Below, in pieces: positions 15,158-63,726 of a stretch of 64,000 nt of DNA (position 1 is the first letter of the stretch; each line of letters opens with the position of its first letter). Where the stretch lies: IMG/VR virus record IMGVR_UViG_3300035182_002586, positions 310,001-374,000 of that record. One strand, written 5' to 3'. The position numbers and the translations under genes were made by a program. The DNA is from a virus. The notes under the pieces are model-generated. The model saw nothing but the letters and a program-made list of their open reading frames with translations. It was not told where the DNA came from and made no database searches.

Positions 15158-15173
15158 GAGGTGGGCCTCGTCG

Positions 15174-15179
15174 TACACC
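15174..15179 (-). promoter_or_regulatory. GGTGTA element before the 157-aa gene
   Basis: TGGTGTACG on the minus strand, 16 nt before ATG 15157. Confidence 0.5.
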
Positions 15180-15188
15180 AGGTGGGGG

Positions 15189-15449
15189 TCAGCCCTTCTC
15201 GTGCTTCTCTCCGTCGCGATCGACCCACTCGATCGCGGCCACGGCGACGGCTGCGACGATGACCATCTGGTGGCGGAACGTGCGGACGTTCCACGGCCAG
15301 TGCACGGCCCGACCAACGTGCTTCGTGAGGAGCCCGATCCAGTCGTTCGGCGCGTTGCACTCGTCGTGGTCGGGACCGCCCCACAGACGATCCTGCTTGC
15401 TGCGCTCGATGTTGATCTCGTTGTAGATGCCTTCGCGATCGTGGTTCAT
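15189..15449 (-). CDS. Small MazG-like phage protein
   Basis: 86 residues. The pattern EINIERSKQDRLWGG, HDECNAPNDWIGLL, then VAVAAIEWVDRD is common in small phage proteins that resemble part of the MazG / nucleotide pyrophosphohydrolase fold (ExxER.QD..WG, then a helix ending in EW.DR). Function not proven; the assignment rests on the pattern. The ATG at 15449 overlaps the stop of the SNF2 helicase gene (ATGA), so translation is coupled. Confidence 0.7.
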   Translation of the reverse strand: MNHDREGIYNEINIERSKQDRLWGGPDHDECNAPNDWIGLLTKHVGRAVHWPWNVRTFRHQMVIVAAVAVAAIEWVDRDGEKHEKG

Positions 15450-45847: not shown

Positions 45848-48800
45848 CTAGATCTGTGCTCTAAGGTTGAACGTGAGGACGAGGTAGAGCAGCGGGAAGA
45901 TCGGCTGATAGCTGGCCGAGAACCGGAGGATCGTGGGATCGCTCGGGTCCACCGCTGCGGTCACGTTCGCGAAGGCGCCGATGATCTCCGCCTGGATGAG
46001 CGTCTTGAAGAGCGCCGTCATCGAGACTTCGACTTCGTTGACGCGGTTCGAGAGGAACTTCGTCCCGACGAACGAGTCGAGGGTGCCGCGCGACTGCTGC
46101 TGCACGAAGTCGGCGATCTGCGTCACCGTCGGCAGACGCGTGAGCACATCCTGCATGTTGGTCGTGAAGCCCTGGCGGATGCGCAGGAACGTCACGAGGT
46201 CTTCGAGCAGGGTGACGCCCGCCACGGCCGTCTGGTTCGCTTCGACCGGATCCAGGATGCGCGGGATGCGCGTGAAGCCCTGGATGCGGCGCCGCGAGTA
46301 CGGGGTGGCCACGTCGACTGCGGGCGAGACCACCGCGCCGGCCACGGCCGCCGCGAAGAAGGTCCCGTCCACCAGGCTCTCGAACGAGTTCCCCACCTCG
46401 TCGGTCAGGGTGATGACCGCCGTGTCCGGGTAGAAGGCGACGATGCGATTCGAGAGCAGCGACTTGGCGACGCTCTGTGCCGCGGTCGGCGTGGTCCCAC
46501 CGGCGAAGCCGATGAAGCCCATGCGCTCGTTCTGGTAGCGAGCCCCCGACTGGACTTCGCAGTGGTTCGTCAGCGCCGTGTAGATCGACGTCGACGTACC
46601 GAGCGGGATGATGATGTCGGGCTTCACGTTCCCGGGGAGCGGCGTCGCCAGCGCGTTGATCGCGTTGATGAAGTCGGTGTCGCTCGCCTGGTTCGTGTTC
46701 GGGACCTTCGGCACCTGCTTGATCCCGACGAGGATGGCCCCGTTGAGGATCGCGAGGTAGGCGCCGAGGGTGACGCGGTTCTCTGCGCTCGTCGTGCCGA
46801 AGTTGGCTTCGACCGTCTTGAGCTGCTGGAAGAGCCGAGTCGAGAAGTCCTGCTTGAGGAAGCGGTACGAGATGAAGTAGAAGTCGCCGTTCTTCGGCTC
46901 GACGCCCGAGGGGGCGAAGGTGAAGAGGGTCGAGGTGTCGTTGACACCGATTCCCACCGTGTTCGCGACGATCAGCTCCAGGCCGCCGATCGCGTAGGTC
47001 GGGACGTTCGGCGAGACGTGGAACGTCTGCGAGACCGTCATGTTGAAGGACCCGCCCGGCGAGTAGCTGCCGGTCGTCGCCGGGAGCACCGTGAAGCGGA
47101 GACCCGTCACCGGATCCGTGTAGGTCTGGCCCGGGGTGCCCGTGCCGCTCGACCCGTTCGGGTTGGTGGACGTGACGGTGTAGTTGTCCTGTGCGTCCTC
47201 GCCCACGTCACCAGAGGTGCCCGGGATGATGCCCGTACCCGACTGGATGTTGAAGGCCGAGTTCGCGCTGTTCGTGAACCCGATCGACGAGGTGGCCGCG
47301 CCGGTCGTGAGCGACTCGAACGTGATGTACGTGTGACCCGCGACCGCTGCGGTGTAGGCCACCGCGCCGGCCGTGAAGGCACCGTCACTCATGAGCACGT
47401 CGACGACTTCCTGAGCCGCCACGAGGGTCTGGCTGGCCTGTGCCCCCTGCGTGAAGCCGAGGACCGTGTTGGCCGAACCCGACCCGATGATGATCGCGCT
47501 CGACGTGTCGTTCGTCGGGCTCGTGAGGCGCACCTTGTTGACGTTCGCGAGGGTACCCGCCGCCGCGACGCCCGAGAGGCCCGGGACCAGGTTGATGGCG
47601 GCTGCCACTGCGGCTGCCGTCACTGCTGCACCGCCGGGGAGGGTGACCGAGTAGTCGACCCCGTTGACCCGGACGAGGAGCGTGTCGTTGAGGCCCGTCG
47701 TGATGTTGAACGGACCGACGCTGGTGCCGAGGATGGTCGCCGGCTTGTTGACGGCGCCCGGGGTGCCGTCCGCACGGGCGAAGGTCGTGAACCCGAGGAG
47801 GGTCTCGGCCGTGCCCTGACGGACGCGCACGTAGCTCGCGGCGTCGAATCCGCCCGGAAGGGCAGCCGGCGTCGAGTAGCTCTGGATGGCGAAGAACACC
47901 GGACCGCCCGCGCCGCCGATCTGGAACGACGTGGCGAGGTTGTTCGGCGCCGTGCCCGCGAAGGCCGGGGCAGCGTCGATGGCGGCGTTGATGTCCGTGA
48001 GGATCTGCGCGACCGTACGGACGCCGGACGTGAGGGCCACCGACACGTCGGTGCCGTCGATCGTCAGGTTCAGCACGTTGTTCGGCGAGGCCGGCACCGT
48101 GATCTGGTTCAGACCCGTGACCGACACGCGCGCGCCGACGAGCCAGCCCTTCGAGGCGGTCGCGAGGTTGTCCGTGATGTCGACGCCGTTGACCTTCGTG
48201 ACCCACGTTGCCGAGGTCGAGGCGAAGAAGTTGTACGGCGAGCCGCCCGCGATCGTGTACGCGGCGTTCGTGGCCGATGCGGTCCCGAAGGTGACCGTGA
48301 CGGTCTCGGACACTGCCGTACCCGCACCCGTGTGGTACGCGTCGGGGATCGTCTCCGAACCACGCGGCCACTGGACCGTCTGCGACAGGCCCGACTTCGT
48401 GCCGAAGCGCACCTGGTAGAGACCCGCGTTCTTCAGCGTCGAGAAGAGCGTGTACTGACCCGACCCCACCGGCCCTGCGACCGTGTTGGTGAGGATGAAC
48501 GTGTCGTCCGAGACCTTGTTGTAGTAGAAGGTCGCGTAGACGTTCCAGTCCGGCGGCAGTGCGTTCTTGAGGGTGATGCGGCGGTTCACGCCGTCGACTG
48601 CCGTGACCGTCTGCACCGGACGGTTGAGAGCATCACGGAGGTTGCGACCCGCATAGACCACCACGAGGTCCGGGCGGTTCGTCACGAGGTCCTGACGCGC
48701 GTTCGCCACCGCGTTGTAGAGCGGGAGGCCGAGCGGCGTGTTGCGACCGTTGCCGGTCGTCGGGATCTCGGGGAGGAGGAAGTCCGTCGTCGAGGTCACC

Positions 48801-50116
48801 GCGGGGATGACCGAGGTGTCGACCACCGGCACGCAGGCCGCGAGCCACATCTTCTGGTCGATGAGGGTCGGGATGATCTGCTGCGTCCCGAAGGGCGTCG
48901 CACCCGGGGTCGTCGTGGTCGGCGTGACCGAGTAGCCGACGCCCCAGTTGACGATCGAGACCGTCGGGCTCGGGTTCGCGATCACGAAGTCCTGGCCCTG
49001 GAGGAAGTCGTTGCGGCCTGCCGAGATGCCGCAGCGGATCACGCTCGTGATCGAGGTGTTCGGCAGGTAGTCGAACGTCCCCTGCCAGGTGTTCGCCCAG
49101 TACTGGATGGTGACGCTGCTACCCGGGGCGGGCGGCGAGGCGAGGGTCACGATGCCGTTGGCACCGTCGACCGCCGTGGGGATCACCTGGATGTTGTTCA
49201 CCTTGACGACGACCTTCGAGGGGTCCGTCGTCGTCGTGCCGGCGCTCGTCCCGTCCACGATCGGACGCTGGAAGACGCGGAACGCGGCGTTGCGGCCGGT
49301 GCTCGCGCCCGACGTGAAGCCGAGCGGACCGTTCGCGTTGCCGTCTCCGATGAGGAGGGAGACCGTCGAGGTGAACTGGAGGTGGTTGCGGCCCTGCGGG
49401 TCGATGTAGACCGAGGTGGAGAGCCCCGGCACCAGCGCCGCATCGATCATCGCCTTGAGCGAGACCGCGGTGGTGGACGAACCAGGGGTCAACACGATGG
49501 TGGCCGTGCCACCGTTCACCGTGATGACGAACGTGTCGCTGATGCCAGCCTGGATGTTGAAGGGCTCGTAGCCCGGGCCGATCAGCGTCGCGTTGGTCGA
49601 GGTGACCTGCGACGACACGTCGTCGGTGAAGCTCGTGTCACCGCGGTGGAAGAAGTAGGTGCAGCGCACCGTGTCGGTCGGCTGGGTGGGCACCTGGAGG
49701 GTCACGAGACCCTTCGCGCCCTGCACCGAACCGATGGCGACCGGCGTGCCGTTCACCGTCACGACCACGCTGCGGACGTCGTTGGTGACGCGCCCGAAGC
49801 CCTGACCGTCGACGAGCGGGAAGTTGCGGACCCGGAAGGTCGAACGCGTGCCGTCCTGCGCACCGAGGACGAGGTTCTGAGGGTTCGTCGCATCGACGAC
49901 CCAGCTCAGGCTCACGTCTTCTGCGGTGACCTCGGTGTCGACCGTGGAGCTAGATCCACGGACCATCTCCAGGTCGAGCTGCTCCAGCTCTTCCTGACCG
50001 ACACCGATGATCGCCGGGATACGCAGACCCGCGACCACGTTCTGGAGGTTGACCTCCGCAAGGGTTCGCGTGTAGACGCCGGGCGGGACGTAGCTGATGA
50101 ACGGACCCAAGGCCAT
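45848..50116 (-). CDS. Contractile tail sheath protein, unusually long (1422 aa)
   Basis: Start MALGPFISYVPPGVYTRTLA at ATG 50116 after GAGGAGACC; YVPPGVYTR is the typical sheath opening. The C-terminal 450 residues (from about AIGGLELIVANTVGIG) contain the sheath core, ending FSASYQPIFPLLYLVLTF. Ordinary sheaths are 400-700 residues; here about 800 residues between the ends carry at least three Gly/Thr/Ser-rich repeats with the pattern FNI-x-G-x-N/SDT-x(2)-V-x-VNG ... V-LT-x-G ... LGF, like flagellin hook IN motifs. They probably form decorations on the outside of the tail. Most highly translated virion gene by its ribosome site. Confidence 0.88.
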   Translation of the reverse strand: MALGPFISYVPPGVYTRTLAEVNLQNVVAGLRIPAIIGVGQEELEQLDLEMVRGSSSTVDTEVTAEDVSLSWVVDATNPQNLVLGAQDGTRSTFRVRNFPLVDGQGFGRVTNDVRSVVVTVNGTPVAIGSVQGAKGLVTLQVPTQPTDTVRCTYFFHRGDTSFTDDVSSQVTSTNATLIGPGYEPFNIQAGISDTFVITVNGGTATIVLTPGSSTTAVSLKAMIDAALVPGLSTSVYIDPQGRNHLQFTSTVSLLIGDGNANGPLGFTSGASTGRNAAFRVFQRPIVDGTSAGTTTTDPSKVVVKVNNIQVIPTAVDGANGIVTLASPPAPGSSVTIQYWANTWQGTFDYLPNTSITSVIRCGISAGRNDFLQGQDFVIANPSPTVSIVNWGVGYSVTPTTTTPGATPFGTQQIIPTLIDQKMWLAACVPVVDTSVIPAVTSTTDFLLPEIPTTGNGRNTPLGLPLYNAVANARQDLVTNRPDLVVVYAGRNLRDALNRPVQTVTAVDGVNRRITLKNALPPDWNVYATFYYNKVSDDTFILTNTVAGPVGSGQYTLFSTLKNAGLYQVRFGTKSGLSQTVQWPRGSETIPDAYHTGAGTAVSETVTVTFGTASATNAAYTIAGGSPYNFFASTSATWVTKVNGVDITDNLATASKGWLVGARVSVTGLNQITVPASPNNVLNLTIDGTDVSVALTSGVRTVAQILTDINAAIDAAPAFAGTAPNNLATSFQIGGAGGPVFFAIQSYSTPAALPGGFDAASYVRVRQGTAETLLGFTTFARADGTPGAVNKPATILGTSVGPFNITTGLNDTLLVRVNGVDYSVTLPGGAAVTAAAVAAAINLVPGLSGVAAAGTLANVNKVRLTSPTNDTSSAIIIGSGSANTVLGFTQGAQASQTLVAAQEVVDVLMSDGAFTAGAVAYTAAVAGHTYITFESLTTGAATSSIGFTNSANSAFNIQSGTGIIPGTSGDVGEDAQDNYTVTSTNPNGSSGTGTPGQTYTDPVTGLRFTVLPATTGSYSPGGSFNMTVSQTFHVSPNVPTYAIGGLELIVANTVGIGVNDTSTLFTFAPSGVEPKNGDFYFISYRFLKQDFSTRLFQQLKTVEANFGTTSAENRVTLGAYLAILNGAILVGIKQVPKVPNTNQASDTDFINAINALATPLPGNVKPDIIIPLGTSTSIYTALTNHCEVQSGARYQNERMGFIGFAGGTTPTAAQSVAKSLLSNRIVAFYPDTAVITLTDEVGNSFESLVDGTFFAAAVAGAVVSPAVDVATPYSRRRIQGFTRIPRILDPVEANQTAVAGVTLLEDLVTFLRIRQGFTTNMQDVLTRLPTVTQIADFVQQQSRGTLDSFVGTKFLSNRVNEVEVSMTALFKTLIQAEIIGAFANVTAAVDPSDPTILRFSASYQPIFPLLYLVLTFNLRAQI

Positions 50117-50315
50117 GGGGGTGGTCTCCTCGGAGGGGCGGCAGAGCTTCTTTGATCCAGATTTCGGGTCAAACAATGACCCACACAACCGTCAAGCCGT
50201 CCCCACTTGGACGACCAGCCTTTGATCCCATCCGTTATGAATCCGATCTTGCCGCTGGTGAGGCGGCTACGACTCGGCGTACCGAGCCGTACAGCACACG
50301 GCCCGCATAAGACGA
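50117..50315. other. Non-coding stretch before the sheath gene
   Basis: 199 nt without a gene. The minus strand reads TTGACG near 50190 and has two GGATCAAAG copies (about 50151 and 50220), possible promoter parts for the sheath gene; no convincing -10 partner is seen. Confidence 0.4.
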
Positions 50316-50756
50316 CTATTTGGCCACAGCGCCTTTCGGAGCTTTCCCGGATCGAAGCGTCTCGATGGCCTGCTTCGCCAACCGACGGCGAGCATCGCGG
50401 CCGGCTTCGCCCATGGGGCGGTACTCCGTCGCCTCGGAGGAGTCCTCTCGCATGAGGGCGTGGGTTCCCGCCGCCTCACGGGCCGCCTGCTTGATCTTGT
50501 CCCGCTCCTCGTTGAACTCCCGCTTTTTGTCCGCGTCCCTCCCGATCAGCTTGTCGGCCGTCGGGTAGTCGTGGTCGTGGACGCCCGAGTTGGCCGTCGC
50601 TGACCCCCCGGGAGCGAAGGCGAACGAGAACCCCTCGATGACCCTCGGCGCCCCTTCCTTACAAGAGGGGCAGGGGTGGCTCTCGTGGTCCCCCATCTTC
50701 AGGTTGCGGTCGAACTTGACGTTGCAGTCCTGGCACTCGAACGTGTACACGGGCAT
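50316..50756 (-). CDS. FmdB-type zinc-ribbon protein
   Basis: 146 residues, start MPVYTFECQDCNVKFDRNL, then HPCPSCKEGAPRVIEGF: the FmdB/CxxC_CXXC regulatory zinc ribbon layout (VYxFxCxxCxxxF ... CPxC). The rest is charged helix with an acidic HD-rich loop. Small FmdB-like proteins occur in phage virion clusters; role unknown. GGAGAAGTCCC precedes the ATG. Confidence 0.75.
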   Translation of the reverse strand: MPVYTFECQDCNVKFDRNLKMGDHESHPCPSCKEGAPRVIEGFSFAFAPGGSATANSGVHDHDYPTADKLIGRDADKKREFNEERDKIKQAAREAAGTHALMREDSSEATEYRPMGEAGRDARRRLAKQAIETLRSGKAPKGAVAK

Positions 50757-50786
50757 GGGACTTCTCCGATCTTCATCTGATGTAGG

Positions 50787-51965
50787 TCACAGGATGCGCT
50801 CGAACTTGTCGTTCCTCCCCACGGCGATGGGGACGGTCGCGAAGTAGAGCCCGCCAGGAATGTCGCTCACGAGGCCAGGCGGGCTCCCGTCCCTGGCTCC
50901 GGTGTAGCCAGGCGTGAGCTTGCTGATGGTCAGCGGGAGCGGGATGTGGATCTCCCAGTCCGACTGGAACGTCGCGGACAAGGAAGCCGTGTAGTACCGA
51001 ATGTCCGCCGTTTCGTCGTAGGACTCTTCGGCCTCACCACCCATGGAGAAGTCCGTCAGCTCGATCCCGTCGAAGGACAGGTTGGCTCGCTTCTCGCCCC
51101 ACATGTACATGATGGCGAGGTCTGCGACTTCTTCCATCGCGTTGGTGTCGTTCGCCACGATCACGGAGAGGTCGAAGTTGATGTCCCATCGACCGCCGTA
51201 GGCGTTCGCGGTGTCGACACGATCGGGGTAGACGACGATCGCCACCTTGTCCCCGACCTTCGACCGCTTGCCGAAAGCGAGCACGACCCCAGGAAGGGTC
51301 TTGAAGTCCGCGTTATTCCACTGGTACGGGACAGGACCGATCGACTGTGTGGCATAGCGGTAGTCCGCCGTCACGATCGCGTCCGGGGGGAACTGCCCGA
51401 TGAATCGGATCGCACCCGTCCTGTAGTCGACAGTGTAGTCGGCCCCCTCTTCGAGTAGGAACCGTCTGTCCTGCCACAGGCGCAGGGTGTTCTTCACTGG
51501 CACCTGCTGGAGTTGCGCCTCACGCTCGACGCCCGAGATGAAGTGCAGCAAAGCCTCGTCCGTGACCGTGAGAAGCGGGTCGATGACGAACGTGCCCGTG
51601 TCGTTGACGTTATCGGGAACCGTCAGGATCTCCAGGTAGTAGACCCCGGGCGGCGTGGGCATCACATCCCCGTTCGCCTTCACCGCTTCGAGGTCCTCTC
51701 GGACCCACTCGATCGGGTTGGCGATCGGGGGGACGTACGCGAGCATCACATAGCTCTTGACCGTCCCGATGAAGTTGTCGGCCGAGAGTTGGACCTTGTT
51801 GGCCGTCGACCCCTTCACCACGATGCCGAGCTGCGGCCGCTCATCGAAGGCGAACCGGTTCTGGATGAAGGGGGTGATCTTCTCGTAGATGGGGTGCCGG
51901 GAGAAACTGTCCTGCAACTCCGCGATCAGGCGACGCTTGAGGGAGTTGATGAGGTAGTAGAACAA
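50787..51965 (-). CDS. Virion structural protein, tail or neck, 392 aa
   Basis: Best start is TTG 51965 after AGAGG. The N-terminal helix (FYYLINSLKRRLIAELQDSF) is followed by beta-rich regions with LLTVTDEALLHFISGVER, DYTVDYRTGAIRFIGQFP and GKRSKVGDKVAIVVYPD. The end (IHIPLPLTISKLTPGYTGA) looks like a tail-completion or sheath-stabilizer protein, but no named family is recognised. Lies between the actin-like gene and the FmdB-like and sheath genes. Confidence 0.6.
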   Translation of the reverse strand: MFYYLINSLKRRLIAELQDSFSRHPIYEKITPFIQNRFAFDERPQLGIVVKGSTANKVQLSADNFIGTVKSYVMLAYVPPIANPIEWVREDLEAVKANGDVMPTPPGVYYLEILTVPDNVNDTGTFVIDPLLTVTDEALLHFISGVEREAQLQQVPVKNTLRLWQDRRFLLEEGADYTVDYRTGAIRFIGQFPPDAIVTADYRYATQSIGPVPYQWNNADFKTLPGVVLAFGKRSKVGDKVAIVVYPDRVDTANAYGGRWDINFDLSVIVANDTNAMEEVADLAIMYMWGEKRANLSFDGIELTDFSMGGEAEESYDETADIRYYTASLSATFQSDWEIHIPLPLTISKLTPGYTGARDGSPPGLVSDIPGGLYFATVPIAVGRNDKFERIL

Positions 51966-52035
51966 GGGGGCCTCTGGCTTGCGCGGTGGAGGACCCGGCC
52001 AAGGGAAGCCTTACAGCCTCACCCCCAGGTCCCGA

Positions 52036-52449
52036 TCAACGAACGGTGAGATTGTCCGGGTTGAGCCGGGTGATGTGGCCGTGAACGAGGTTCGCGAGAT
52101 TGCGGCCCATCTCGTTGGCATCGATGAAGACGCTTCCGCCCCCGTGGACGTCGAATCGACCTTCCACGAGGATGGCCGACGCGATCGCCTTCACGGCCTT
52201 ACCGTCGGCGAAGAGGGACACGGAGATCTGGCCCCGCGTCTTGGGGTTCTCGATGATGAACGCCCCTGTCAGCTCGGTGTTCGAGGTCGTCACGCGACGA
52301 TCGAGCTTCCAGCCGAGGCCCATGGATGCCTCGAACGAATAGGCCAACGTCTGTGCGAACGAGGCGAAGTAGTCCGCCATGCTTGCACCCGAAGCCGTCT
52401 TCGGATCCGAGGCCGTCTTCCATGCAGGGTGGTTGGGGGCGTAGTGCAT
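52036..52449 (-). CDS. Virion-region protein, 137 aa
   Basis: Starts MHYAPNHPAWKTASDPKTAS, with GGAGACC 6 nt before the ATG. Beta-rich C-terminal part (GAFIIENPKTRGQISVSLFADG, GRFDVHGGGSVFIDA). Possible tail or baseplate component; family unknown. Follows the actin-like gene by 11 nt. Confidence 0.6.
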   Translation of the reverse strand: MHYAPNHPAWKTASDPKTASGASMADYFASFAQTLAYSFEASMGLGWKLDRRVTTSNTELTGAFIIENPKTRGQISVSLFADGKAVKAIASAILVEGRFDVHGGGSVFIDANEMGRNLANLVHGHITRLNPDNLTVR

Positions 52450-52460
52450 CGAACGGTCTC

Positions 52461-53474
52461 CTACTCCGAGTGGGCATCACGCGCGAGAACCAGCAGGCCC
52501 TCGGCTACGGCGGTCATCGGGTCCTTCGCCTGACGGACCTCGCTGATCGGGATCGGGAAGCCGCGCTTCTTCACGGCCTCGAACTCTTCCTTGAAGATGT
52601 CCATGAACCCGTCGGCCTTCGACGTACCGCCGGAGACGACGAACGGGATGGCATCGGGGAGGTCGATCTTCGTTTGGCTCTTGCGGAACTGCGCTGCGAT
52701 GTTGTCGAGGCAGTACGTGATGAGGGCGCGGATGTAGAGCGCGATCGCCTCCTGCTCACGGCCAACCGGCTTCGTGAGATTGACGCCCTTCTCCTTGATC
52801 GCGCACATGCGGGCCGGCGTTGAACCCATCGCCTTGGCTGCGTGGGCGTCGACCCAATCACCGCCACGTGCGAGGGCGAACGAGAGACCCTCGACCGTCT
52901 GGTACGAGAGGGCCACGTTGCACATACCCGACCCGAAGCTCACCGCGAGACCTGAGAAGCCGTCGTCCGCGCAGTTCGAGTAGACGATGGCCATCGCCTC
53001 GTTCGTCGGGACGGCCTTGTACCCGTGCTCGGTGATGATCTTCCGGAAGATCTCAGTGTGGTACACGATGTCCTGGCCTTCGTCGTCGACCGGGGCAGCG
53101 GGCACGCTGTAGTAGCAGTTCTCGCCGGAGACGACCGGATCCTCCAGGACCTTGTAGACGAGAAGGCTCAGGATCTCCTGCGCGTCCACCTCGGCGGAGG
53201 ACACGACACCCCGTGCCAGCGGACGGCGCACGTCACGCTTGAACAGGTTTGCCATCGTAAGGGCACTGTCCCCGATGACGATGATCTGCCCATCCTTCTC
53301 GATGTACGAGACCTTGGACATCCTGAGAGAGCGTTTCGCCTCCGGGTCTAGATCCAGGAAGGCGTCGCGGACCCTCTGTGTCACGGTTTTGTCGTTGTCG
53401 TTCGTGCGAGCAGAAACCAAATTCATGGTTCCCACGTCGAGTCCGACCCCAGGTCTCATTTTCGCGTCGCCCAT
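52461..53474 (-). CDS. Actin-like ATPase (ParM/MreB superfamily)
   Basis: 337 residues. Phosphate-1 motif GVGLDVGTMNLV (10-20), connect-1 TNEAMAIVYSN near 157-167, phosphate-2 LAVSFGSGMCNVALSY (176-191) and adenosine motif FVVSGGTSKADGF (278-290). In phosphate-2 the usual Asp is replaced by Ser. Length is close to ParM and phage Alp proteins. Such proteins polymerise into filaments that move DNA or position phage factories. Start ATG 53474 has GGGAGAAG 5 nt upstream; ATG 53459 is possible. It lies in the tail gene cluster, next to a homing endonuclease that overlaps its start. Confidence 0.8.
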   Translation of the reverse strand: MGDAKMRPGVGLDVGTMNLVSARTNDNDKTVTQRVRDAFLDLDPEAKRSLRMSKVSYIEKDGQIIVIGDSALTMANLFKRDVRRPLARGVVSSAEVDAQEILSLLVYKVLEDPVVSGENCYYSVPAAPVDDEGQDIVYHTEIFRKIITEHGYKAVPTNEAMAIVYSNCADDGFSGLAVSFGSGMCNVALSYQTVEGLSFALARGGDWVDAHAAKAMGSTPARMCAIKEKGVNLTKPVGREQEAIALYIRALITYCLDNIAAQFRKSQTKIDLPDAIPFVVSGGTSKADGFMDIFKEEFEAVKKRGFPIPISEVRQAKDPMTAVAEGLLVLARDAHSE

Positions 53475-54238
53475 TTGATCTTCTCCCTGATTCGATTTTC
53501 ACATGCTGCGGGGTCTGTCTGGATGTCACGTTCCCACAGACGAAGCACAGACAGCCCTCGCATCAAAGCCTGCTTGTCGGCCAAAGTGTCCAGCCCCTTG
53601 CGTTGTCTCTGCCTCGGGCTGAGTTGCTTGTAAACGGCTGGATTACCGTGCCAGTAATCTCCGGTTTGGATCACAACTCCCAGGGAGGGGATAAGAAAGT
53701 CCACGGTGAAGTCCCCCACCTGTCCCTGTGCGACGAAATCCACCGTGAGGCGTTCTAGTACCCCTCTGACCCAAGCCTCAATTTTCGTCTCCCGTCGTTG
53801 AAACTTGCGAAGCCTCTCTGGTGAGGCAGCTCGGAGCTTGGCCTTGTACTCCTCTGCCTGAGTTGGACCGTACGTTTCTTCGTAGGAGCGCCCCGCTTTA
53901 GACTGGACGTGTGCTCTGATCCCACGTGTGATCTCAGCGACGTACTTGGGATCTTGGTAGAGGTGTTTGACCCTGTGGACAGGGTTCGCTTCACCTCGCT
54001 GCTGCTCTCCGAACTCGGGGTGCACACGATGCCATCGACAAAGAGGGTTTCGGTCCCCCTCCAACCATGGCTTGTCCCTCTCAGAAAGCGTCTTGGTACG
54101 TAGCCCATGCCGACGTAGTTCACGCTGGATCGTTGCGGACCCGCAGTGGAAAAACGTCTTCAAATCTGACAGCCGTGCGTCTGGATTCGCAGCCAGTACG
54201 GCTTCCAGTTCGGCTTTGGGTATCTCTCGCCCAGGCAT
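53456..54238 (-). CDS. Free-standing homing endonuclease, Vsr-like fold
   Basis: 260 residues from ATG 54238 (TAGGAAC upstream; ATG 54262 also possible). A helix-turn-helix-like segment (DLKTFFHCGSATIQRELRRHG) and basic spacer lead to a C-terminal nuclease of the Vsr/PD-(D/E)XK type: VDFVAQGQVGDFTVDFLIPSLGVVIQTGDYWHGNPAVY and LRLWERDI. It overlaps the actin-like gene start by 19 nt. Confidence 0.8.
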   Translation of the reverse strand: MPGREIPKAELEAVLAANPDARLSDLKTFFHCGSATIQRELRRHGLRTKTLSERDKPWLEGDRNPLCRWHRVHPEFGEQQRGEANPVHRVKHLYQDPKYVAEITRGIRAHVQSKAGRSYEETYGPTQAEEYKAKLRAASPERLRKFQRRETKIEAWVRGVLERLTVDFVAQGQVGDFTVDFLIPSLGVVIQTGDYWHGNPAVYKQLSPRQRQRKGLDTLADKQALMRGLSVLRLWERDIQTDPAACENRIREKIKWATRK

Positions 54239-54273
54239 TGTTCCTACATCTGAGCCTGGCATAAGAGCAATCT

Positions 54274-55002
54274 CTAGCGGCAGTCGTACTTGTAGCCCGA
54301 CTGAGAAGCCGTCTTCGCCGTCCTCTGGTTCAGGAGGTAGACGAACTCCTCGTGCTTGTCGGCGATGCCCTGGAGCATGTTGTCCGTGCCCGACGAGAGC
54401 ATGTTGAGGGCCGTCAGGTCCGCCCTCACAGCCTCGACGAGCGCGATGGCCATCTTCACGACCGCCAGACTGCACGCAGGGAAGTTCGCAGGCCCTTCGA
54501 GACCTTCCGGCTGCGCGTAGGCCACGAGAACCGCCTGGTGGGCCATCTGGATGACCGGACCCACGTACTCGACGCCCCCCGTGCTGACCGTGCGCTCGGC
54601 CCACGAGTCGATCAGCCCGTTCGTGTCGTTGTAGAGGCGATCGAAGAGAAGGTGGTCCCCGTAGTAGTCCGGGCCCCTCGTCTGCCAGTGGTGCGTCTGG
54701 TGGATGACGGTCTCCGCCCGGAGCATCGACAGCAGCACGCCCATGAGCCCGAAGGGACCCGCGTACTGCGCCTTCAAGAGCCCGAAGACCTTCTCCGGAG
54801 ACGCTCCCGCAAGCCACTGTGACGGCGGCAGCATGAGCGGCGTGTCTGCGCCGACCGCCGCCGTCTTCGGACGTGCGGATGCAATCGGAGCCCCATCGAC
54901 GGTCTGACCGGGGAGGTAGGGCGGACCGTGCGCGAAGTGGTTGTACTGCGTAGGGTCGTGCCAGATCGCGTAGGCTGCCGCGCCGTTGGGATCGTGAGCC
55001 AT
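54274..55002 (-). CDS. Dps/ferritin-like protein in the tail cluster
   Basis: 242 residues from ATG 55002 (stop-start overlap TGATG). The core has TVIHQTHHWQTRG, YYGDHLLFDRLYND, LIDSWAERT and near the end GTDNMLQGIADKHEEFVYLL, the fingerprint of Dps. The ferroxidase ligands keep E. coli Dps spacing exactly: H105, H117, D121, D132, E136. Ordinary Dps is about 160-190 residues; here an N-terminal extension of about 75 residues (WHDPTQYNHFAHG) is added. Dps binds iron, scavenges peroxide and can bind DNA. Its place among virion genes suggests a virion component. Confidence 0.82.
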   Translation of the reverse strand: MAHDPNGAAAYAIWHDPTQYNHFAHGPPYLPGQTVDGAPIASARPKTAAVGADTPLMLPPSQWLAGASPEKVFGLLKAQYAGPFGLMGVLLSMLRAETVIHQTHHWQTRGPDYYGDHLLFDRLYNDTNGLIDSWAERTVSTGGVEYVGPVIQMAHQAVLVAYAQPEGLEGPANFPACSLAVVKMAIALVEAVRADLTALNMLSSGTDNMLQGIADKHEEFVYLLNQRTAKTASQSGYKYDCR

Positions 55003-55334
55003 CACTTCACCGCCTTGTCCTTCAGCAGCGTACGGAGGTGCTCGATGTCGCCCGGGAAGATCCAGCCTTCCCACGCCTTCGTGAGCTTGGCCTCCGCCGC
55101 CTTGAACGCGGGACCAACCTTCGGATCGAGCGCGATGGGAGAGTCGGACTCCAGGGCACTCAGCTCGATGTGGGCGTCCTGGAGGAGCTTCCCCGCTTCC
55201 TTGAGGGCGTGCTCGATCTTCGCGAGCTGCGCGAGGTACTTGGGCACGTTGGCCTGGAGCTGCTCCGGGTGCGGGACGACCCTGGCAAGGACCTCTCGCG
55301 ACTGCTGAATGAGACTGGCCTGACGAGCGTGCAT
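55002..55334 (-). CDS. Helical virion-region protein, 110 aa
   Basis: Starts MHARQASLIQQSREVLARVV after GGAGAG. Helical throughout, with heptad-like stretches (LAQLAKIEHALKEAGKLLQDA), and ends KDKAVK just before the Dps-like start, with which it shares TGATG. Likely translated together with it. Function unknown. Confidence 0.65.
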   Translation of the reverse strand: MHARQASLIQQSREVLARVVPHPEQLQANVPKYLAQLAKIEHALKEAGKLLQDAHIELSALESDSPIALDPKVGPAFKAAEAKLTKAWEGWIFPGDIEHLRTLLKDKAVK

Positions 55335-55373
55335 GGGGGCTCTCCTACAGGGCGTCTTTGACAAGGAACTTTA

Positions 55374-56000
55374 TCAAGACGGCCCCTTCTCGCGGATCTT
55401 CCGGAGAGCAGCGGAAGCTGCCCCAACCCCACCAGCCTGCCCCTCGTCCTTCTGGACGTTCACGTAGTCCTTCACGTCGGTGGGCTTGATGGTGGACGGG
55501 ATGAAGAGGGGGGCGTCTCCCGAGGGGGCATCCGAGGCCGGCTTTTCGGCACGCGCAGCCGAGGAGGCTCCTCCACTGCCGGCGGAAACCCCGCGGATGA
55601 GCGCCGCCATCTCGTTGAAGCGTTCCTGCTGCACGATCAGCACGGCCGCAAATGCCTGGTCACGGTGCGACATCTCTTCGCGAAGCAGACGGTTCTGCTC
55701 CTCCAGGGCCGAAACGAGAGCCGTGGGAGGTGCTGCCGCCGTGGGGACGGGGGGTGGGGGTGCAGCCACCGTAGGAACGGGAAGCGGAGCGGGGTGAGGC
55801 ATTCCGTGAGGTGCCGCCGAATGAATCGACCCCCCGTGGAACTGGAACAAGAGACGCTGGCTGATGAGACGCCACAGGTCCTTGGAACGGTGAGCCTTCT
55901 CTGCGGAGATGGACACCACCACACCATGTGGCACGTCAACGAAGATATCCTCGATGAGGATCGTCCCTGTCTTCGTGTTGATCACCTTCACATCGTTCAT
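55374..56000 (-). CDS. Virion-region protein, 208 aa
   Basis: Start MNDVKVINTKTGTILIEDIF at ATG 56000, sharing TGATG with the gp10-like gene. N-terminal beta domain, then Pro/Ala/His-rich linker, a coiled helix (EEQNRLLREEMSHRDQAF) and an acidic-Gly-rich end. Possibly a tail or neck protein. Family unknown. Confidence 0.6.
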   Translation of the reverse strand: MNDVKVINTKTGTILIEDIFVDVPHGVVVSISAEKAHRSKDLWRLISQRLLFQFHGGSIHSAAPHGMPHPAPLPVPTVAAPPPPVPTAAAPPTALVSALEEQNRLLREEMSHRDQAFAAVLIVQQERFNEMAALIRGVSAGSGGASSAARAEKPASDAPSGDAPLFIPSTIKPTDVKDYVNVQKDEGQAGGVGAASAALRKIREKGPS

Positions 56001-56512
56001 CACTTGGACCTGAATGCGGCTGCGACCTGGCGTTGAAGGTCTCGTTTGATGGCCTTCTTGATGTGCTCGCGAGCTTCCTTGCGAGCCTTCTCGATGATGG
56101 TCGTCGGCTCGTGACCCGGGTGGATCCACTTACCGTTCTTCATCGACCGCGGCGTAGCCGAGCGGAAAATCAGCTCTCCCTCTTCCGTGATGATCGGGAT
56201 GGGAGCCCGAGCCTTTACGAGCCACCGCATCTGCCCACCCTCGCGACCCATGAGAAGGGGTCGGAACGCCGGGTGGTTTGCCGTGATCTGAATGCTCGAT
56301 GCTTTCGCGACGACCTTCAACGCCCGACTGAGCGCGGCCCGCGCGCGCGTCGAGAAGGTCGTCTGCATCATGATGTTGTTCTTGACCCTCTTCATCACGT
56401 CAGCCCGGAGCTTGCGGAGAACCGCTTCCGGGTCGATCTTCCTCAGGGCTGCCGCTGAGGTGACGAGGGGCTTGAGGTTGATCTGCCCAACGGTGACGAA
56501 CGGGTGCGCCAC
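56000..56512 (-). CDS. Neck protein-like (HK97 gp10-like), 170 aa
   Basis: Helical basic N-terminus (EAVLRKLRADVMKRVKNNI), middle HPAFRPLLMGREGGQMRWLV, and a C-terminal helix with KARKEAREHIKKAIKRDLQ. The pattern of a basic alpha/beta fold with a terminal helix is that of HK97 gp10-type neck proteins. Moderate confidence. Lies between the 451-aa structural protein and the 208-aa protein. Confidence 0.6.
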   Translation of the reverse strand: MAHPFVTVGQINLKPLVTSAAALRKIDPEAVLRKLRADVMKRVKNNIMMQTTFSTRARAALSRALKVVAKASSIQITANHPAFRPLLMGREGGQMRWLVKARAPIPIITEEGELIFRSATPRSMKNGKWIHPGHEPTTIIEKARKEAREHIKKAIKRDLQRQVAAAFRSK

Positions 56513-56515
56513 GGG

Positions 56516-57871
56516 CTAGTACTCCAGGTTCTCCCAAGCGATCGTGCGGCCGCGAAGCTGCTGCTCACTCGGGATGTTGGGCTTGTTGGTGACACCAGAG
56601 GACGCCTCGTTCTCTGGGCCGTCCGGTGCGAACTGCACCGCGGGCGCGTGTAGAGGAGATCCCACCGGCACCTTGTATCGGATGTCCTTCTCGTCGAGGT
56701 GCCCGACCGTGAAGTGCTGCTGGATGATGTTCCCGCGGTTGTTCGGGAAGCGCACCCCGCCCACCGAGTAGCGCTCGCCGTTCACCTTCACGATGAAGTC
56801 GCGATGCGCGAGGATGGGGGTGGGCCCGGTCCAGGTCTCGTAGGAGTGCTCGACCGTTCGACCCAGTTCCGTCTGCGAGATCTTCCGTTCGGCGTCGTCG
56901 GGGGCAACGATGAGGTCGTACGGTCCCTCATACCCCCCAAGAATGCCCGTGCCGTAGCAGTTCAGGCAGTCGTTCTGCGGCTGCTTGTGCTGCTCGCTAG
57001 GGTCACAGGGGCACGGTACCCCAACGTTCTTGCGAAGGAACGCCTTCACACGCTCGCCGCCCTGCTCCAAGATCCACCGGTTGCGACGAACCGCTTCGCG
57101 CCAGATGTAGTCGAGCTTCTCAACTTCGTAGGACGAGGCAGCGGCCGCACTCTCCAGAGGGGTCTCCACGAGGTCCTGAGGTTGAACCGTGGCGAGGTCG
57201 AGGTTGATCGGGATGCCGACCGTGGCCACCCGCCAGAACACCCTCTGCGCCAGGTCCGTCTTGAGGAGGGTCCGGGTGTAGCGGTAGTAGCAGACCACCC
57301 GGCTGTTCGGACCCGGAATCACCGCCGGGGTGAGGCTCTGCGTCCCGACCTCCGGGAACATGCGAGGGTCAATTTCGACCTCCCCCGCCTTCCCGAAGAC
57401 ACGGAGCACCCGCGCCTCCACACCGTCCACGAAGACACGAACGTCGAGCGGGTAATCCGCAGGGATCTGCTGCGACCCCTCCTTGACGATCGGCGAGTGG
57501 AGGGTCCGGAAGACGTACCTCGGCGCATCCTGCCCGGAAGCCGTCGCCAGACCCTTGAGGATGAACTGGTCGGAGACGTCCTCCTCCAAGAGCACGTTGT
57601 CCGTCTGGTCACGCCAGAACGTCGCCCCCACAGGTAGGTCGGTCACCCGCTCGAACGGGCCGAACTCCGAGTCGAACGACCGGTACACGTTGACCCCGAG
57701 AATCCGGAACCGCCCGTTCACGGGGAGTTGGGCAGGGTCATCCCACTGGAGATCGAACACACCCGCGTGATACCCGCTCGACGAGAACAGGTTCAGCGGG
57801 GCCGCCGGCCAAGGCGCGCGTTCGATCTCCAGGGGCCCGGGGGTCCGGTCTCGTTGCGTCGAGTAGGGCAT
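56516..57871 (-). CDS. Virion structural protein with Cys motif, 451 aa
   Basis: Beta-rich and Pro-rich throughout (WDDPAQLPVNGRFRILGVNVYRSF, ERVTDLPVGATFWRDQTDNV). Near 290 it has GVPCPCDPSEQHKQPQNDCLNCYGTG, a Cys cluster that may bind metal or form disulfides. The end is polar. Fits a neck or baseplate wedge protein; family not named. Upstream space holds no other gene. Confidence 0.65.
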   Translation of the reverse strand: MPYSTQRDRTPGPLEIERAPWPAAPLNLFSSSGYHAGVFDLQWDDPAQLPVNGRFRILGVNVYRSFDSEFGPFERVTDLPVGATFWRDQTDNVLLEEDVSDQFILKGLATASGQDAPRYVFRTLHSPIVKEGSQQIPADYPLDVRVFVDGVEARVLRVFGKAGEVEIDPRMFPEVGTQSLTPAVIPGPNSRVVCYYRYTRTLLKTDLAQRVFWRVATVGIPINLDLATVQPQDLVETPLESAAAASSYEVEKLDYIWREAVRRNRWILEQGGERVKAFLRKNVGVPCPCDPSEQHKQPQNDCLNCYGTGILGGYEGPYDLIVAPDDAERKISQTELGRTVEHSYETWTGPTPILAHRDFIVKVNGERYSVGGVRFPNNRGNIIQQHFTVGHLDEKDIRYKVPVGSPLHAPAVQFAPDGPENEASSGVTNKPNIPSEQQLRGRTIAWENLEY

Positions 57872-59435: not shown

Positions 59436-59900
59436 ATGAGCCAAGGTGTGTTGGTCGTGTCTCTGGCCGATGGGAAGGTGGTGGTTTCTGCTGGGGATGA
59501 AAAGCGTACCTTTGCCCACGAGGACACGGAGAAGATCGGAGATTTCCTAGCGGAGCAAGAGCCGCACCGCATCATGTACTCTTCGTCGGTGAGCCACCCC
59601 GACGAGTACGGGTTCCCCGAGGACTTCAACCTGGACCCGTTTCTCGCGAAGGCCGAAGCACACGCCAGGATGAAGACGGCGGTGAGGTTCCCACCCCACC
59701 CTCTACAGGAGGCCACCGAAGCTCTCGAAGCGGCCACCGCCTCGGCACCCAAGGACAGACCTGTCGCGGTGCTGTTCCTCCAGGCGGGCAAAGAGGGTCA
59801 GGACGCCCTCGTCGAGTTCGCAGGCGAGTCCGAGCTGGAGATGTTCCTTGGGGGTATGCGGTACGCGAGGAACCTCGCCAAGCTCACGTCGAAGGACTAG
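59436..59900 (+). CDS. Hypothetical protein, 154 aa
   Basis: Starts MSQGVLVVSLADGKVVVSAG, 10 nt after the GGTGTA element. Beta start, then an acidic region (EDTEKIGDFLAEQEPH), a Pro/Glu linker and a helical end (ESELEMFLGGMRYARNLA). Unknown family. Overlaps the convergent endonuclease end by 4 nt. Confidence 0.65.
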   Translation: MSQGVLVVSLADGKVVVSAGDEKRTFAHEDTEKIGDFLAEQEPHRIMYSSSVSHPDEYGFPEDFNLDPFLAKAEAHARMKTAVRFPPHPLQEATEALEAATASAPKDRPVAVLFLQAGKEGQDALVEFAGESELEMFLGGMRYARNLAKLTSKD

Positions 59901-61369
59901 GGCTTGTGTAGTTTCGACAGGAACTCTGCGACGCGCCCCTGTACTTCTTGGGGGTCTGCCTTGAGGTCGGACTCCCACACGACCAAGCAAGACACCCCGA
60001 TGTCTGCGTAGGCTCCGATCAGCTCTTGTTCGTGATCGAAGTTCGCTTTGCCCGTGAACATTCGGGAGTGCCAAAAGTCCCCAAACAACTCGACCGCTTT
60101 CGTAATACCCATTTTCGGGCGTGCGAGGTCCGGGCCGGGAAGAAGAAAATCGGGGTTCTTGTGTTGCCCCAGCTTAGGCAACCACCGCCAGAATGTACCG
60201 TTCCCCGTGTAGAGAAGCTGTGGGACGAGTGCATGAAGCATCCGTTCGGACAGGTTCGGCCCCGATCGTACATTCGCACAGAGGGCTTTGAAAGCCACAC
60301 CGGGGTCCATCATGGCATTGGGGACACCGTAGGTGTCCATACACGTAGCTTTGTACGACTCGACTGCCTTCACGTAGACTTCTGGGCTCTTCATGGGGTT
60401 ATCGAACCCATACCGTTCCAAGCATACGGTGCGTCGTTTCTCCAGCACCTCTGCAAGTTGCAGAGGGTGTGTCACGCCGTACTTGCGCAAGAAAGTCTCA
60501 ACGGCCCTATCCCAAAACCCGTCGATCTTTGCAGGATGATCGACCCCATACCTTTCTATGAGTGCCTCTCGGATCTTCGCTCGACCTTCATCCGAGGCTA
60601 GAAAGTGGCTGCCGTACCGTCCTTCCATGGTGTCGTACTGTTGCTGACGCACACCAGGATGTTGTGCGGTCCAGTCTACACCCCAGCGCTTCTGGTTCGT
60701 CTGGCGTGTACGCCCCACAACCTCTGCCGAGGCACCAGGAGATGGCCCCCCGTACCGTTTAGTGTTGGTCGCAATGATACGCGCCCGCACCTCAGGAGAA
60801 GCTAACACCTCCCCCACGCCATACCTATCCAAGTTCGTAGCGCGTGTCTGTGCCCGAACGACAGGTGACTGCTGAGGGTTCTCCGCTCCACGACGTGCGA
60901 GATGTGTAGCTCGGATCTTAGCTTTTACGTCAGCACGAGAGAAAGGATTGTCCTCCCCCGTAAGCGACCGGTGGTTCGCTTTCGACGCTGCTTGTACTTG
61001 AGCGAAAAGTGCGGACTCACGTGCGAAGTTGTTTTCCGCTCCGTACCTCTCTCTTAGCGTGGCTTTACGTCTTTCTTCAGCAGACGTAATGCTTCGGGGG
61101 TTTACCACACCTTCGCCATGATTTCGTTGGAGGGTCTCCGCAAGACGCTCCATCTGCACCTCCCCCCGATCGCGCTCCGCCCAACGTGTACACGATGTTC
61201 GATGGCGCTTCATCTGCGTAGCAGACATCGCCTCAAACCCACACAGACAGGGCCTTGGTCTGCGATCACCCAGTGCCTCTCGCCAGCCCTCACACACAGA
61301 CTTGTGGCGAGAGTTGATCACGTCAGAGGTAGCGAAGTGCTTTTGGCAGTGGGGGCAAGTGACGGGCAC
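59897..61369 (-). CDS. Homing endonuclease with many RYG repeats and Vsr-like nuclease domain
   Basis: 490 residues. Two zinc fingers at the N-terminus (VTCPHCQKHFATSD ... HKSVC; PCLCGFEAMSATQMKRHRTSC), then about ten copies of a 25-40-residue repeat with core RYG[AVF] (RERYGAENN, LDRYGVGEV, IERYGVDHP, LERYGFDNP and others), and a C-terminal nuclease: KNPDFLLPG, VELFGDFWHS and CLVVWESDL. This is the layout of a known group of phage endonucleases with DNA-binding repeats. Lies 27 nt after the split-intein gene. Confidence 0.85.
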   Translation of the reverse strand: MPVTCPHCQKHFATSDVINSRHKSVCEGWREALGDRRPRPCLCGFEAMSATQMKRHRTSCTRWAERDRGEVQMERLAETLQRNHGEGVVNPRSITSAEERRKATLRERYGAENNFARESALFAQVQAASKANHRSLTGEDNPFSRADVKAKIRATHLARRGAENPQQSPVVRAQTRATNLDRYGVGEVLASPEVRARIIATNTKRYGGPSPGASAEVVGRTRQTNQKRWGVDWTAQHPGVRQQQYDTMEGRYGSHFLASDEGRAKIREALIERYGVDHPAKIDGFWDRAVETFLRKYGVTHPLQLAEVLEKRRTVCLERYGFDNPMKSPEVYVKAVESYKATCMDTYGVPNAMMDPGVAFKALCANVRSGPNLSERMLHALVPQLLYTGNGTFWRWLPKLGQHKNPDFLLPGPDLARPKMGITKAVELFGDFWHSRMFTGKANFDHEQELIGAYADIGVSCLVVWESDLKADPQEVQGRVAEFLSKLHKP

Positions 61370-61396: not shown

Positions 61397-62341
61397 TTAG
61401 GCAAGGTGTGGGGACAGCATATCGAGAATAACCTTACAAAACAGGAACAAGGGGATGACGAATCCTACGAACTTTCTAGGTGTGAGTACACCTGCACCTA
61501 CATAGGGTCCAAAACTCGACCTGATTCCCGTTCCGAACTTCGGCTGCTGAAGACCACGGACGAAGTTGACGGTGGCTTTCGCGCGATCAAGCTGCTTGTC
61601 GAATTGGTCAGCCGCCGCGTTCATCGCCGCTTCGTACTTGCTTGCCTTGTCGATGCCGAGCGAAACGCCGCCGATGGAGTAGTCGAACTCGTCCGCCACC
61701 CAGTTGATGCGGAGCGCCTGTAGGGCGTGAATCTGCGCGGCCGTGAGCAGGAGCGTGGTCCACTCGCGTCGCTCACGCACCATCACATCGACGCTCGGGA
61801 AGGGCGTGCGCGGCGGTGCCGAGACGATCATATCCAGACCGCGCTGGATGTACTCGTTCAGCTCTTCCTCTTCCCAGATGAAGCCGAAGACCCGGTTGAA
61901 CTGCCGGATGGTCGTCTCGTGGGTCGGGGGGCGGAAGTGGTAATTGCGGTCAGGGGAGTTCGAGACGAGCATCCCGGATCGGTGGAGAACGAAGTTGTGC
62001 CAGTCCTCCGCTGTCAGATCATACATGTACTGTCTGGAGGGCAGACGTTCCACAGAGAGAACCTGTACAGAGGCACTGTGACTCGCAACCTTGGTGTCTG
62101 TGCTCAGTCTCTCCGTCTCTACCTTGGTGCGCGGGGTCAGAAACACCCGGTGACCACCAGTCAGGACAGACGAACCCTTGGAGGTCGTCACCTTGAGGAT
62201 CGATTCCGGACCCACCTCAGCTCGATGAACGTGTAGGACGCGCTTCCACTCCGACTGACCCTCGGGGGAGACAGACTGCACACGCAACGACCCTTGTTCA
62301 AAGGCCGCTCGGATCTTCTCGCGTTGCAAGGGGCTCAGCAT
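61397..62341 (-). CDS. Split-intein C-half (IntC) fused to the C-terminal part of a baseplate/neck protein
   Basis: 314 residues from ATG 62341 (AGAAGGAC upstream). Residues 1-128 are the C-part of an intein: block B LTGGHRVFLT near 60-69, block F YMYDLTAEDWHNF near 105-117 and the end SGMLVSN. Ser129 begins the extein SPDRNYHFRPP. Penultimate His is Ser here. The extein (186 residues) continues the protein whose first 133 residues are encoded at 63220-63726, with FGFIWEEEELNEYI and a hydrophobic C-terminus. The order matches a trans-spliced phage structural protein. Confidence 0.85.
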   Translation of the reverse strand: MLSPLQREKIRAAFEQGSLRVQSVSPEGQSEWKRVLHVHRAEVGPESILKVTTSKGSSVLTGGHRVFLTPRTKVETERLSTDTKVASHSASVQVLSVERLPSRQYMYDLTAEDWHNFVLHRSGMLVSNSPDRNYHFRPPTHETTIRQFNRVFGFIWEEEELNEYIQRGLDMIVSAPPRTPFPSVDVMVRERREWTTLLLTAAQIHALQALRINWVADEFDYSIGGVSLGIDKASKYEAAMNAAADQFDKQLDRAKATVNFVRGLQQPKFGTGIRSSFGPYVGAGVLTPRKFVGFVIPLFLFCKVILDMLSPHLA

Positions 62342-63263
62342 CGAAGTCCTTCTCCGTCCAGATGAGGAAGTCCCACCCCATGCGCGCTGCATAGGAAGAA
62401 GCTGCTTCGAGCCTGCGCGTCACACGGTGGTCCGGGGGGAGGCTCAGGGTCCAGCTCGCCTTCACTTCGACCAGAACGATGGACCCGTCATGGTGGGTCA
62501 CAAAGAAGTCGGGAAGGATCCAACGACCATCTGGCAGCTCTACCCGTGGCTCAAACAAGTACTCTTTCACAGACGGGTCACGATCCAGAAGGCGCACCAC
62601 AACCCGCTCATAGCTGCTGCGCGTCCAAATGAGTGCCCGTGTGCACTTCTTGGGGGACACCCACTCGCCGCGACCCCGCTGCCACTTTTCGGGGTTGTCC
62701 AACATACGTTGTGTCTGCGCCGCAGACCGGAGCGCCCGCACATCCTCTCGGTGATGATACGCCAGAAGACGGCCACGCTCCTCAGGACGTTGCCACCTGC
62801 GAAGCGCGGATTCACGGCGGCGATGCTTTACATCGGGCCTCTGTGCGACAAGGCGTAGCGTTTCCCGCTCCTCAACAGACCGAATACGACCACGGTGAAA
62901 GTCGAACGAGCCGGCCTCCCACGCTTTCTGCATCCGCAATGAGAGCCACGGCTTCTCTCGGCCCTTACCTGCACGGCCAACGACAGCAGCGTTTGCGGCC
63001 CGGTTAGCTCTGGAGGCGTCGTTCCACGCTGCCTTGGTCAGTCGTTGTATGGCAGCGAGTGACAAGCCGGTCAGAGACATCATCCGCTTCCAGGGGGTCC
63101 CTGCGGCATGTAACTCTGTGACCAAAGCACTGCGTTTCTGGGCAACCCCCAAAGGAGGGCGACCGGGCTTTCGAAACACCTCCCAAGAAATACCGTGCTT
63201 CGCAAGCAACGGTACCAGTTCAGGGGGCGGGAGTAGTTCCGTGGATCGCCTCGTAGAGATCAC
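62298..63263 (-). CDS. Endonuclease gene between the two intein halves
   Basis: 321 residues. Start is unclear (GTG 63263 used; overlaps the N-half gene by 44 nt). N-terminal helix-turn-helix-like part (GTPWKRMMSLTGLSLAAIQRLT), a basic spacer, and a C-terminal nuclease domain with LPDFFVTHHDGSIVLVEVKASW, the D-x-E/K core of PD-(D/E)XK enzymes, then AASSYAARMGWDFLIWTEKDF, as in TnsA-like proteins. Its end overlaps the C-half gene start by 44 nt. Similar arrangement is known from fractured split-intein genes with a free-standing endonuclease. Confidence 0.8.
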   Translation of the reverse strand: MISTRRSTELLPPPELVPLLAKHGISWEVFRKPGRPPLGVAQKRSALVTELHAAGTPWKRMMSLTGLSLAAIQRLTKAAWNDASRANRAANAAVVGRAGKGREKPWLSLRMQKAWEAGSFDFHRGRIRSVEERETLRLVAQRPDVKHRRRESALRRWQRPEERGRLLAYHHREDVRALRSAAQTQRMLDNPEKWQRGRGEWVSPKKCTRALIWTRSSYERVVVRLLDRDPSVKEYLFEPRVELPDGRWILPDFFVTHHDGSIVLVEVKASWTLSLPPDHRVTRRLEAASSYAARMGWDFLIWTEKDFDAEPLATREDPSGL

Positions 63264-63726
63264 GGATAGTAACTACCATTTTCTCGCCCCCCACGTCAAG
63301 TTCGACCTCTTCCTCCCCACCTACACAGTTGTCGCGGAGCAGGATGCGCAGGCGGCGCATCAGGTCGCTCTCGATCTGCGTGAACGTCGAGGTGCCCATG
63401 AGCGAGGCGGTCACCTTGTCGACGACCTCGAACTCCTGGAGCACCTGCTGGATCGCTGCCCCGACCGACTGCCTGAACGTCCATCGGATGCGGTAGCTGC
63501 CGATGTTGGCGTCGAGAGGGATGATGATCGACGAGTAGTACTCGCCGACCGACGGGTTCACCGGCGTCCGCTTCGCGGGACCGAGGAGGACCTCCATCCC
63601 CGTCGTGTAGTCGTAGAGGGCGTAGGAGATCTCCGCGGCGTTCACCGGCACGTCAGACGACGAGACGAGGAAGATGTTGAGGTCCTCCCGCCCGAGCTGC
63701 TGACCCTTGTAGAACGCCGTGGACAT
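63220..63726 (-). CDS. N-terminal part of a baseplate/neck protein fused to a short split-intein N-half (IntN)
   Basis: 168 residues. Residues 1-133 are the N-extein (MSTAFYKGQQLGREDLNIFL ... IESDLMRRLRILLRDN). Cys134 starts the intein with CVGGEEEVELDVGGEKMVV, matching block A, and the protein stops at residue 168 after only 35 intein residues. The second block (B) is not here but in the C-half gene, so the intein is split between A and B, as in atypically split inteins with a short N-part. Confidence 0.85.
   Translation of the reverse strand: MSTAFYKGQQLGREDLNIFLVSSSDVPVNAAEISYALYDYTTGMEVLLGPAKRTPVNPSVGEYYSSIIIPLDANIGSYRIRWTFRQSVGAAIQQVLQEFEVVDKVTASLMGTSTFTQIESDLMRRLRILLRDNCVGGEEEVELDVGGEKMVVTIRDLYEAIHGTTPAP

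Follow-up and report, generated by a model that had tools for sequence, protein, structure and literature searches.

A full-length volactin-family actin encoded among the neck and tail genes of huge phages

So far, volactin is known solely from haloarchaea, as a cytoskeletal filament; here we report a full-length member of this actin family encoded in the tail operon of a huge phage. The window analysed comprises 64,000 nucleotides, positions 310001–374000 of a 528,957-base (~529 kb) IMG/VR virus record, and the open reading frame at 52461–53474 on the minus strand starts with ATG and encodes 337 amino acids. For this protein the computation yields the family, the fold, the ATP-site residues, a single copy per genome, strict purifying selection, a fixed operon place within one phage clade (clade 1) and slow co-inheritance with the tail genes. 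From the presence of full-length volactin in this phage and in hundreds of related giant viral contigs we infer that the infecting viruses probably assemble actin filaments of their own, with the role proposed below. No published account of volactins in phages was found in the open-access literature, an earlier description elsewhere being possible; the words phage and virus are absent from the papers on volactin (PMC10869688) and salactin (PMC10746226), jumbo-phage overviews leave viral actins unmentioned, and the 2020 huge-phage paper does not contain the word actin.

Scanned against Pfam with hmmscan, the protein matches Volactin (PF25216; curated cut-off 35 bits) with an E-value of 2.4e-75 and 254 bits, nearly over its full length (residues 10–331 on positions 3–321 of the 321-position profile); archetypal haloarchaeal volactins score 447–466 bits against the same profile. 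The only other match is to MreB (PF06723, MreB_Mbl), at 15.1 bits and below its cut-off of 27, and the scan returned no ParM (StbA) match. The first-pass annotation had likened the product to ParM or phage Alp proteins, which its size does fit; its family, however, is Volactin, and it is a full-length member of that family, not a ParM/Alp protein. PHROGs offers no convincing match or family for it, and reference phage annotation therefore misses the gene. A search of PDB sequences with the single actin sequence gave no match, and a profile search retrieved MamK (E-value 3.7e-7).

The fold was modelled with AlphaFold2 from an alignment of 70 sequences, yielding a mean pLDDT of 95.5, a pTM of 0.92 and a single actin fold that spans residues 5 to 337 of the 337. 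In the VIA-align comparison the top structure is the MamK filament (Z 28.6, 2.9 Å over 294 residues), with BeeR (27.0), MreB (~25–26), crenactin (25.3), F-actin (~25) and DnaK (24.8) ranking lower; the Foldseek list for the model is also headed by MamK, and in BFVD the model matched nothing beyond distant Hsp70-like proteins and Gp506 of phage G. The initial call of an actin-fold ATPase is thereby upheld, and the Hsp70/sugar-kinase-like fold that had been named as the result that would speak against it is not what the model shows: by model and structure comparison the protein has no Hsp70 C-terminal substrate-binding domain, and the Z-score for MamK exceeds that for DnaK, by a modest gap. Nor does the model have the tubulin fold of PhuZ and TubZ. 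Because the best-matching folds are those of the filament formers MamK, BeeR and MreB, the comparison supports a filament-forming protein. MamK, from magnetotactic bacteria, is thus the closest match both among solved structures and by sequence profile, although it serves to position a cellular organelle.

The actin regions placed on first inspection are all present and essentially invariant among the relatives. The phosphate-1 motif GVGLDVGTMN (53421–53450, minus strand, as are all features of the window below; D13, G15, T16) keeps D, G and T in 149/149 homologues with residues there, and N158–E159 (52998–53003) is followed by the phosphate-2 motif SFGSGMCN (52917–52940), by G205–D206 and by the adenosine motif VSGGTSKADGF (52605–52637), which contains G282 and G283. 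Across 152 homologues S179, E159, G181, G183, D206, D209, H139, G282 and G283 are invariant, and N158 is kept in 151. In the profile alignment E159 corresponds to the catalytic E143 of MamK, so that the glutamate is kept, whereas S179 of the phosphate-2 motif takes the place of the usual aspartate (D161 in MamK, and D also in Escherichia coli MreB). At the site that aligns with MamK A278, considered for polymer contacts, most clade-1 members have Leu and the other homologues vary, a point weighed against a filament.

The serine, already remarked upon in the first-pass annotation, is therefore no peculiarity of this phage: since it occurs in 152/152 relatives, including both haloarchaeal copies (from Haloarcula and Natrinema plasmids), it is a trait of the Volactin family and not a defect. 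Judged from the alignment, it implies that ATP hydrolysis would differ from that of MamK or ParM. MamK and other actins lose both their ATPase activity and the dynamics of their filaments when the equivalent aspartate is mutated (PMC5059902), and by this analogy its loss could result in a weak ATPase with static polymers, or in no polymers. The Volactin family nonetheless has a member, Haloferax volactin, whose filaments are dynamic in living cells (PMC10869688), the serine itself having been read in the haloarchaeal plasmid copies. Proteins with a phosphate-2 serine provide a testable set for how an actin functions without the usual catalytic aspartate.

A scan of viral contigs with an 11-sequence alignment as query found clade-1 homologues in at least 192 contigs of up to 618,736 bp (~619 kb), contig counts being such that one phage assembled repeatedly may be included. 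Two homologues only are present in INPHARED, both in metagenome-derived huge phages without annotation, LR745208 (485 kb, actin identity 54%) and LR756511 (595 kb, 31%), the latter being the entry to a second phage clade (clade 2) of at least 108 contigs. Exactly one actin copy was found in 31/31 genomes, namely 30 large records and the window's own. Full-strength volactins of non-viral origin were confined to haloarchaea, among them the Haloferax control genome and plasmids of Haloarcula and Natrinema, whose volactins are 38–39% identical to the window actin; a haloarchaeal volactin query found no match among the viral contigs. A cellular origin was rejected for two loci, in an Actinomycetota MAG (L016) and an Altiarchaeales MAG (L017), both contigs carrying phage neck-tail genes; other Altiarchaeota genomes are without volactin, and the remaining Actinomycetota matches score at the level of MreB. 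A third gene context was noticed in a phage-like contig of an Altiarchaeales MAG (L186, G002:C75), in which 13969–15291 on the minus strand encodes a 440-residue volactin extended at its N-terminus by ~110 residues, near genes that by eye resemble lysis, IMP dehydrogenase and peptidase genes.

The phage protein thus shares its Pfam family, at full length, with Volactin of Haloferax volcanii (VolA, HVO_2015), and the phosphate-2 serine with the haloarchaeal plasmid copies. Unlike haloarchaeal volactin, it is present as a single copy inside a neck-tail operon, occurs in huge phages with apparently bacterial hosts and occupies a separate branch of the actin tree, in which clade 1, clade 2 and the haloarchaea are distinct and the root is unsure; MreB was rejected as a root, its branch being too long for trust. 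A bacterium is the likely host of the window's virus because one ORF of the record shows, by eye, a region-4 motif of bacterial sigma-70 and because its cultured relative, Tunturi 5, infects Acidobacteriota. The Sigma70_r4 profile as such was discarded as a host marker, since it matches archaeal controls too and is not discriminating.

The location of the gene within a tail cluster is confirmed by annotated homologues of the sheath and terminator and by the conservation of gene order. Clade-1 loci run, on one strand, from the connector through the minor tail protein (p451), p170, p251, a Dps-like gene and the actin to the tail terminator, an FmdB-like protein and the sheath. In the window, p451 (56516–57871, 451 aa) is homologous to the 'minor tail protein' gp322 of Tunturi_5 (E-value 1.7e-59) and to the virion structural family phrog_1004, and p170 (56000–56512, 170 aa) is a neck-region protein conserved in 78 clade-1 loci. 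The Dps-like mini-ferritin (54274–55002; profile A6 versus Dps structures, E-value 8e-13) normally lies directly upstream of the actin, as in 56/84 loci with a median gap of ~28 bases, and a DNA-condensing or iron partner is possible. Downstream, the 392-residue terminator (50787–51965) is homologous to the 'tail terminator' gp324 of Tunturi_5 and weakly matches phrog_123, the FmdB-like zinc-ribbon protein (50316–50756; PF09723, 4.3e-10) corresponds to gp325, and the sheath (45848–50116, ~1422 aa) corresponds to gp326 (E-value 2.8e-189), to phrog_2839 in relatives and to proteins annotated 'tail sheath' in many of the 211 matching phage records. With ~1420 aa, and as many as 1934 in relatives, the sheath is unusually long and contains a DUF2460-like insertion, an element also weakly seen in the terminator.

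Both terminator and sheath lie downstream of the actin on the same strand in 85/85 testable clade-1 loci, p451 lies upstream in 77 of the 78 testable, and in 52/92 loci no more than ~60 bases separate the actin stop codon from the terminator start. When loci were queried from the terminator, the actin was present in 67/67 close and 63/67 more distant ones; no Volactin was found in the records of the four loci that lack it, two of which are short fragments. Such constancy would suit a virion-assembly factor, for instance an ATP-driven switch or short oligomer at the neck-tail junction that aids the joining of terminator and sheath, or a protein built into the particle, and it weakens the case for a cytoskeletal filament. 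We nevertheless regard a role of this kind, which the first-pass annotation had also entertained, as unlikely, ranking second to the filament proposed below, and an obligatory tail part is argued against. To our knowledge, no tail uses an actin. One of the four actin-less loci (L297) keeps p451, p170, p251, terminator, FmdB and sheath, and Tunturi_5 (PP885688) has homologues of the connector, minor tail, terminator, FmdB and sheath genes in the same order as the window phage, with no actin anywhere in its genome by a Volactin model search. Tunturi 5 is a cultured 309-kb phage with a 167-nm contractile tail (PMC11924767). Since both keep the neck-tail module without it, the actin, as read from gene content, would be an extra gene in this module, not required to build the tail type. 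In clade 2, moreover, the actin lies near PKD-domain and tail-fibre-like genes, the neck and sheath genes of clade 1 being absent there, so that its function would be independent of the clade-1 tail-gene neighbours. In 77/81 clade-2 loci the gene immediately before the actin is a conserved 76-aa ORF (11756–11986 in L015), a candidate partner.

The actin nevertheless diverged in step with the module. Its distances correlate with those of the tail genes at Spearman coefficients of 0.74–0.81, a value reached in 0/200 permutations and close to what the tail genes show with one another (0.78–0.82), which favours the virion-assembly alternative; the actin is inherited with the tail module, not as a mobile passenger. 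Relative to the window, the actin has a median identity of 65%, versus 38–63% for its neighbours. Together with dN/dS values of 0.03–0.12 for close pairs, the co-divergence points to a constrained core gene, and the same dN/dS values and the many viral homologues exclude a chance ORF.

We consider the most plausible reading, tentatively, to be a late-made cytoskeletal Volactin filament, a functional analogue of PhuZ by which intermediates of virion assembly or DNA are positioned. Polymerization, timing and cargo we infer as follows: the actin would be translated late together with the tail genes, bind ATP and polymerize into filaments in the bacterial cytoplasm, and the filaments would hold in place or bring together capsids, tails or replicated DNA, enabling the assembly of very large virions. 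This would be the job of the PhuZ tubulin spindle in Chimalliviridae, likewise a virus-encoded cytoskeleton of jumbo phages, although PhuZ is a tubulin and none of the volactin phages checked (0/30) has a PF00091 tubulin in a search that detected the PhuZ of phiKZ and that a more divergent tubulin could escape. A filament is supported by this result together with the single actin copy in all 31 genomes. The understanding of jumbo-phage cell biology derives nearly entirely from PhuZ, a tubulin, and the phage nucleus; with a one-copy, slowly evolving actin fixed in the structural operon and no detectable tubulin, a further large group of giant phages may organize infected cells with actin. If the filament exists, it would be an actin-based counterpart of the PhuZ spindle in a widespread group of huge phages. 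The finding takes volactin beyond haloarchaea and ties it to virus assembly; with some reserve, we suggest that huge phages may use their own volactin cytoskeleton for virion assembly and that haloarchaeal and phage volactins could form one family moving between viruses and cells.

Two further roles were weighed against this cytoskeletal filament. Partition or transport of viral genomes, or of a plasmid-like form, is what known phage and plasmid actins such as AlpC of prophage CGP3 accomplish (PMC4446434), and haloarchaeal salactin affects DNA partition (PMC10746226). The phage volactin resembles AlpC and ParM in being an actin-like protein of a mobile element, but it belongs to a different family and has no centromere-like repeats beside its gene: a search of 49900–56600 for a parC/alpS-like array found nothing but repeats of two or three copies, at a level expected by chance and for the most part within coding sequence. 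Because such an array and a ParM family match are both lacking, a ParM/AlpC-type system is disfavoured, and we consider it improbable; the gene is also packed among structural genes, with only the short median gap to the Dps-like gene, and no conserved adjoining DNA-binding adaptor was recognized as common to both clades, its neighbours being the Dps-like protein, the terminator and a 137-aa ORF, or the 76-aa ORF in clade 2. Similarly doubtful is a host-directed actin that would disturb or replace host MreB or the shape machinery and change cell shape or volume for a 500-kb phage. Haloferax volactin does affect cell shape (PMC10869688) and the fold is close to that of MreB, but takeover of the host early in infection is hard to reconcile with a late structural operon, and the MreB score stays below the family cut-off (15 vs 27 bits).

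Several ORFs of the window interrupt the conserved order. The 137-aa accessory ORF between actin and terminator (52036–52449) has no Pfam or PHROG match and was dropped as a conserved CheX-like partner, homologues being missing from that slot in the clade-1 relatives. An inserted 268-aa ORF (53456–54262), by eye a putative endonuclease with homologues in 7 loci only and no Pfam match, is placed precisely between the Dps-like and actin genes and overlaps the actin start. The connector gene seems interrupted (61397–63726): ORFs at 63220–63726 and 61397–62392 both match gp319 of Tunturi_5, and an intein splicing domain and a TnsA-like endonuclease domain lie between or within them, which suggests that the gene carries an intein. 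A large homing endonuclease (59897–61369; DUF7487, phrog_3339) constitutes a further mobile insertion in the structural region.
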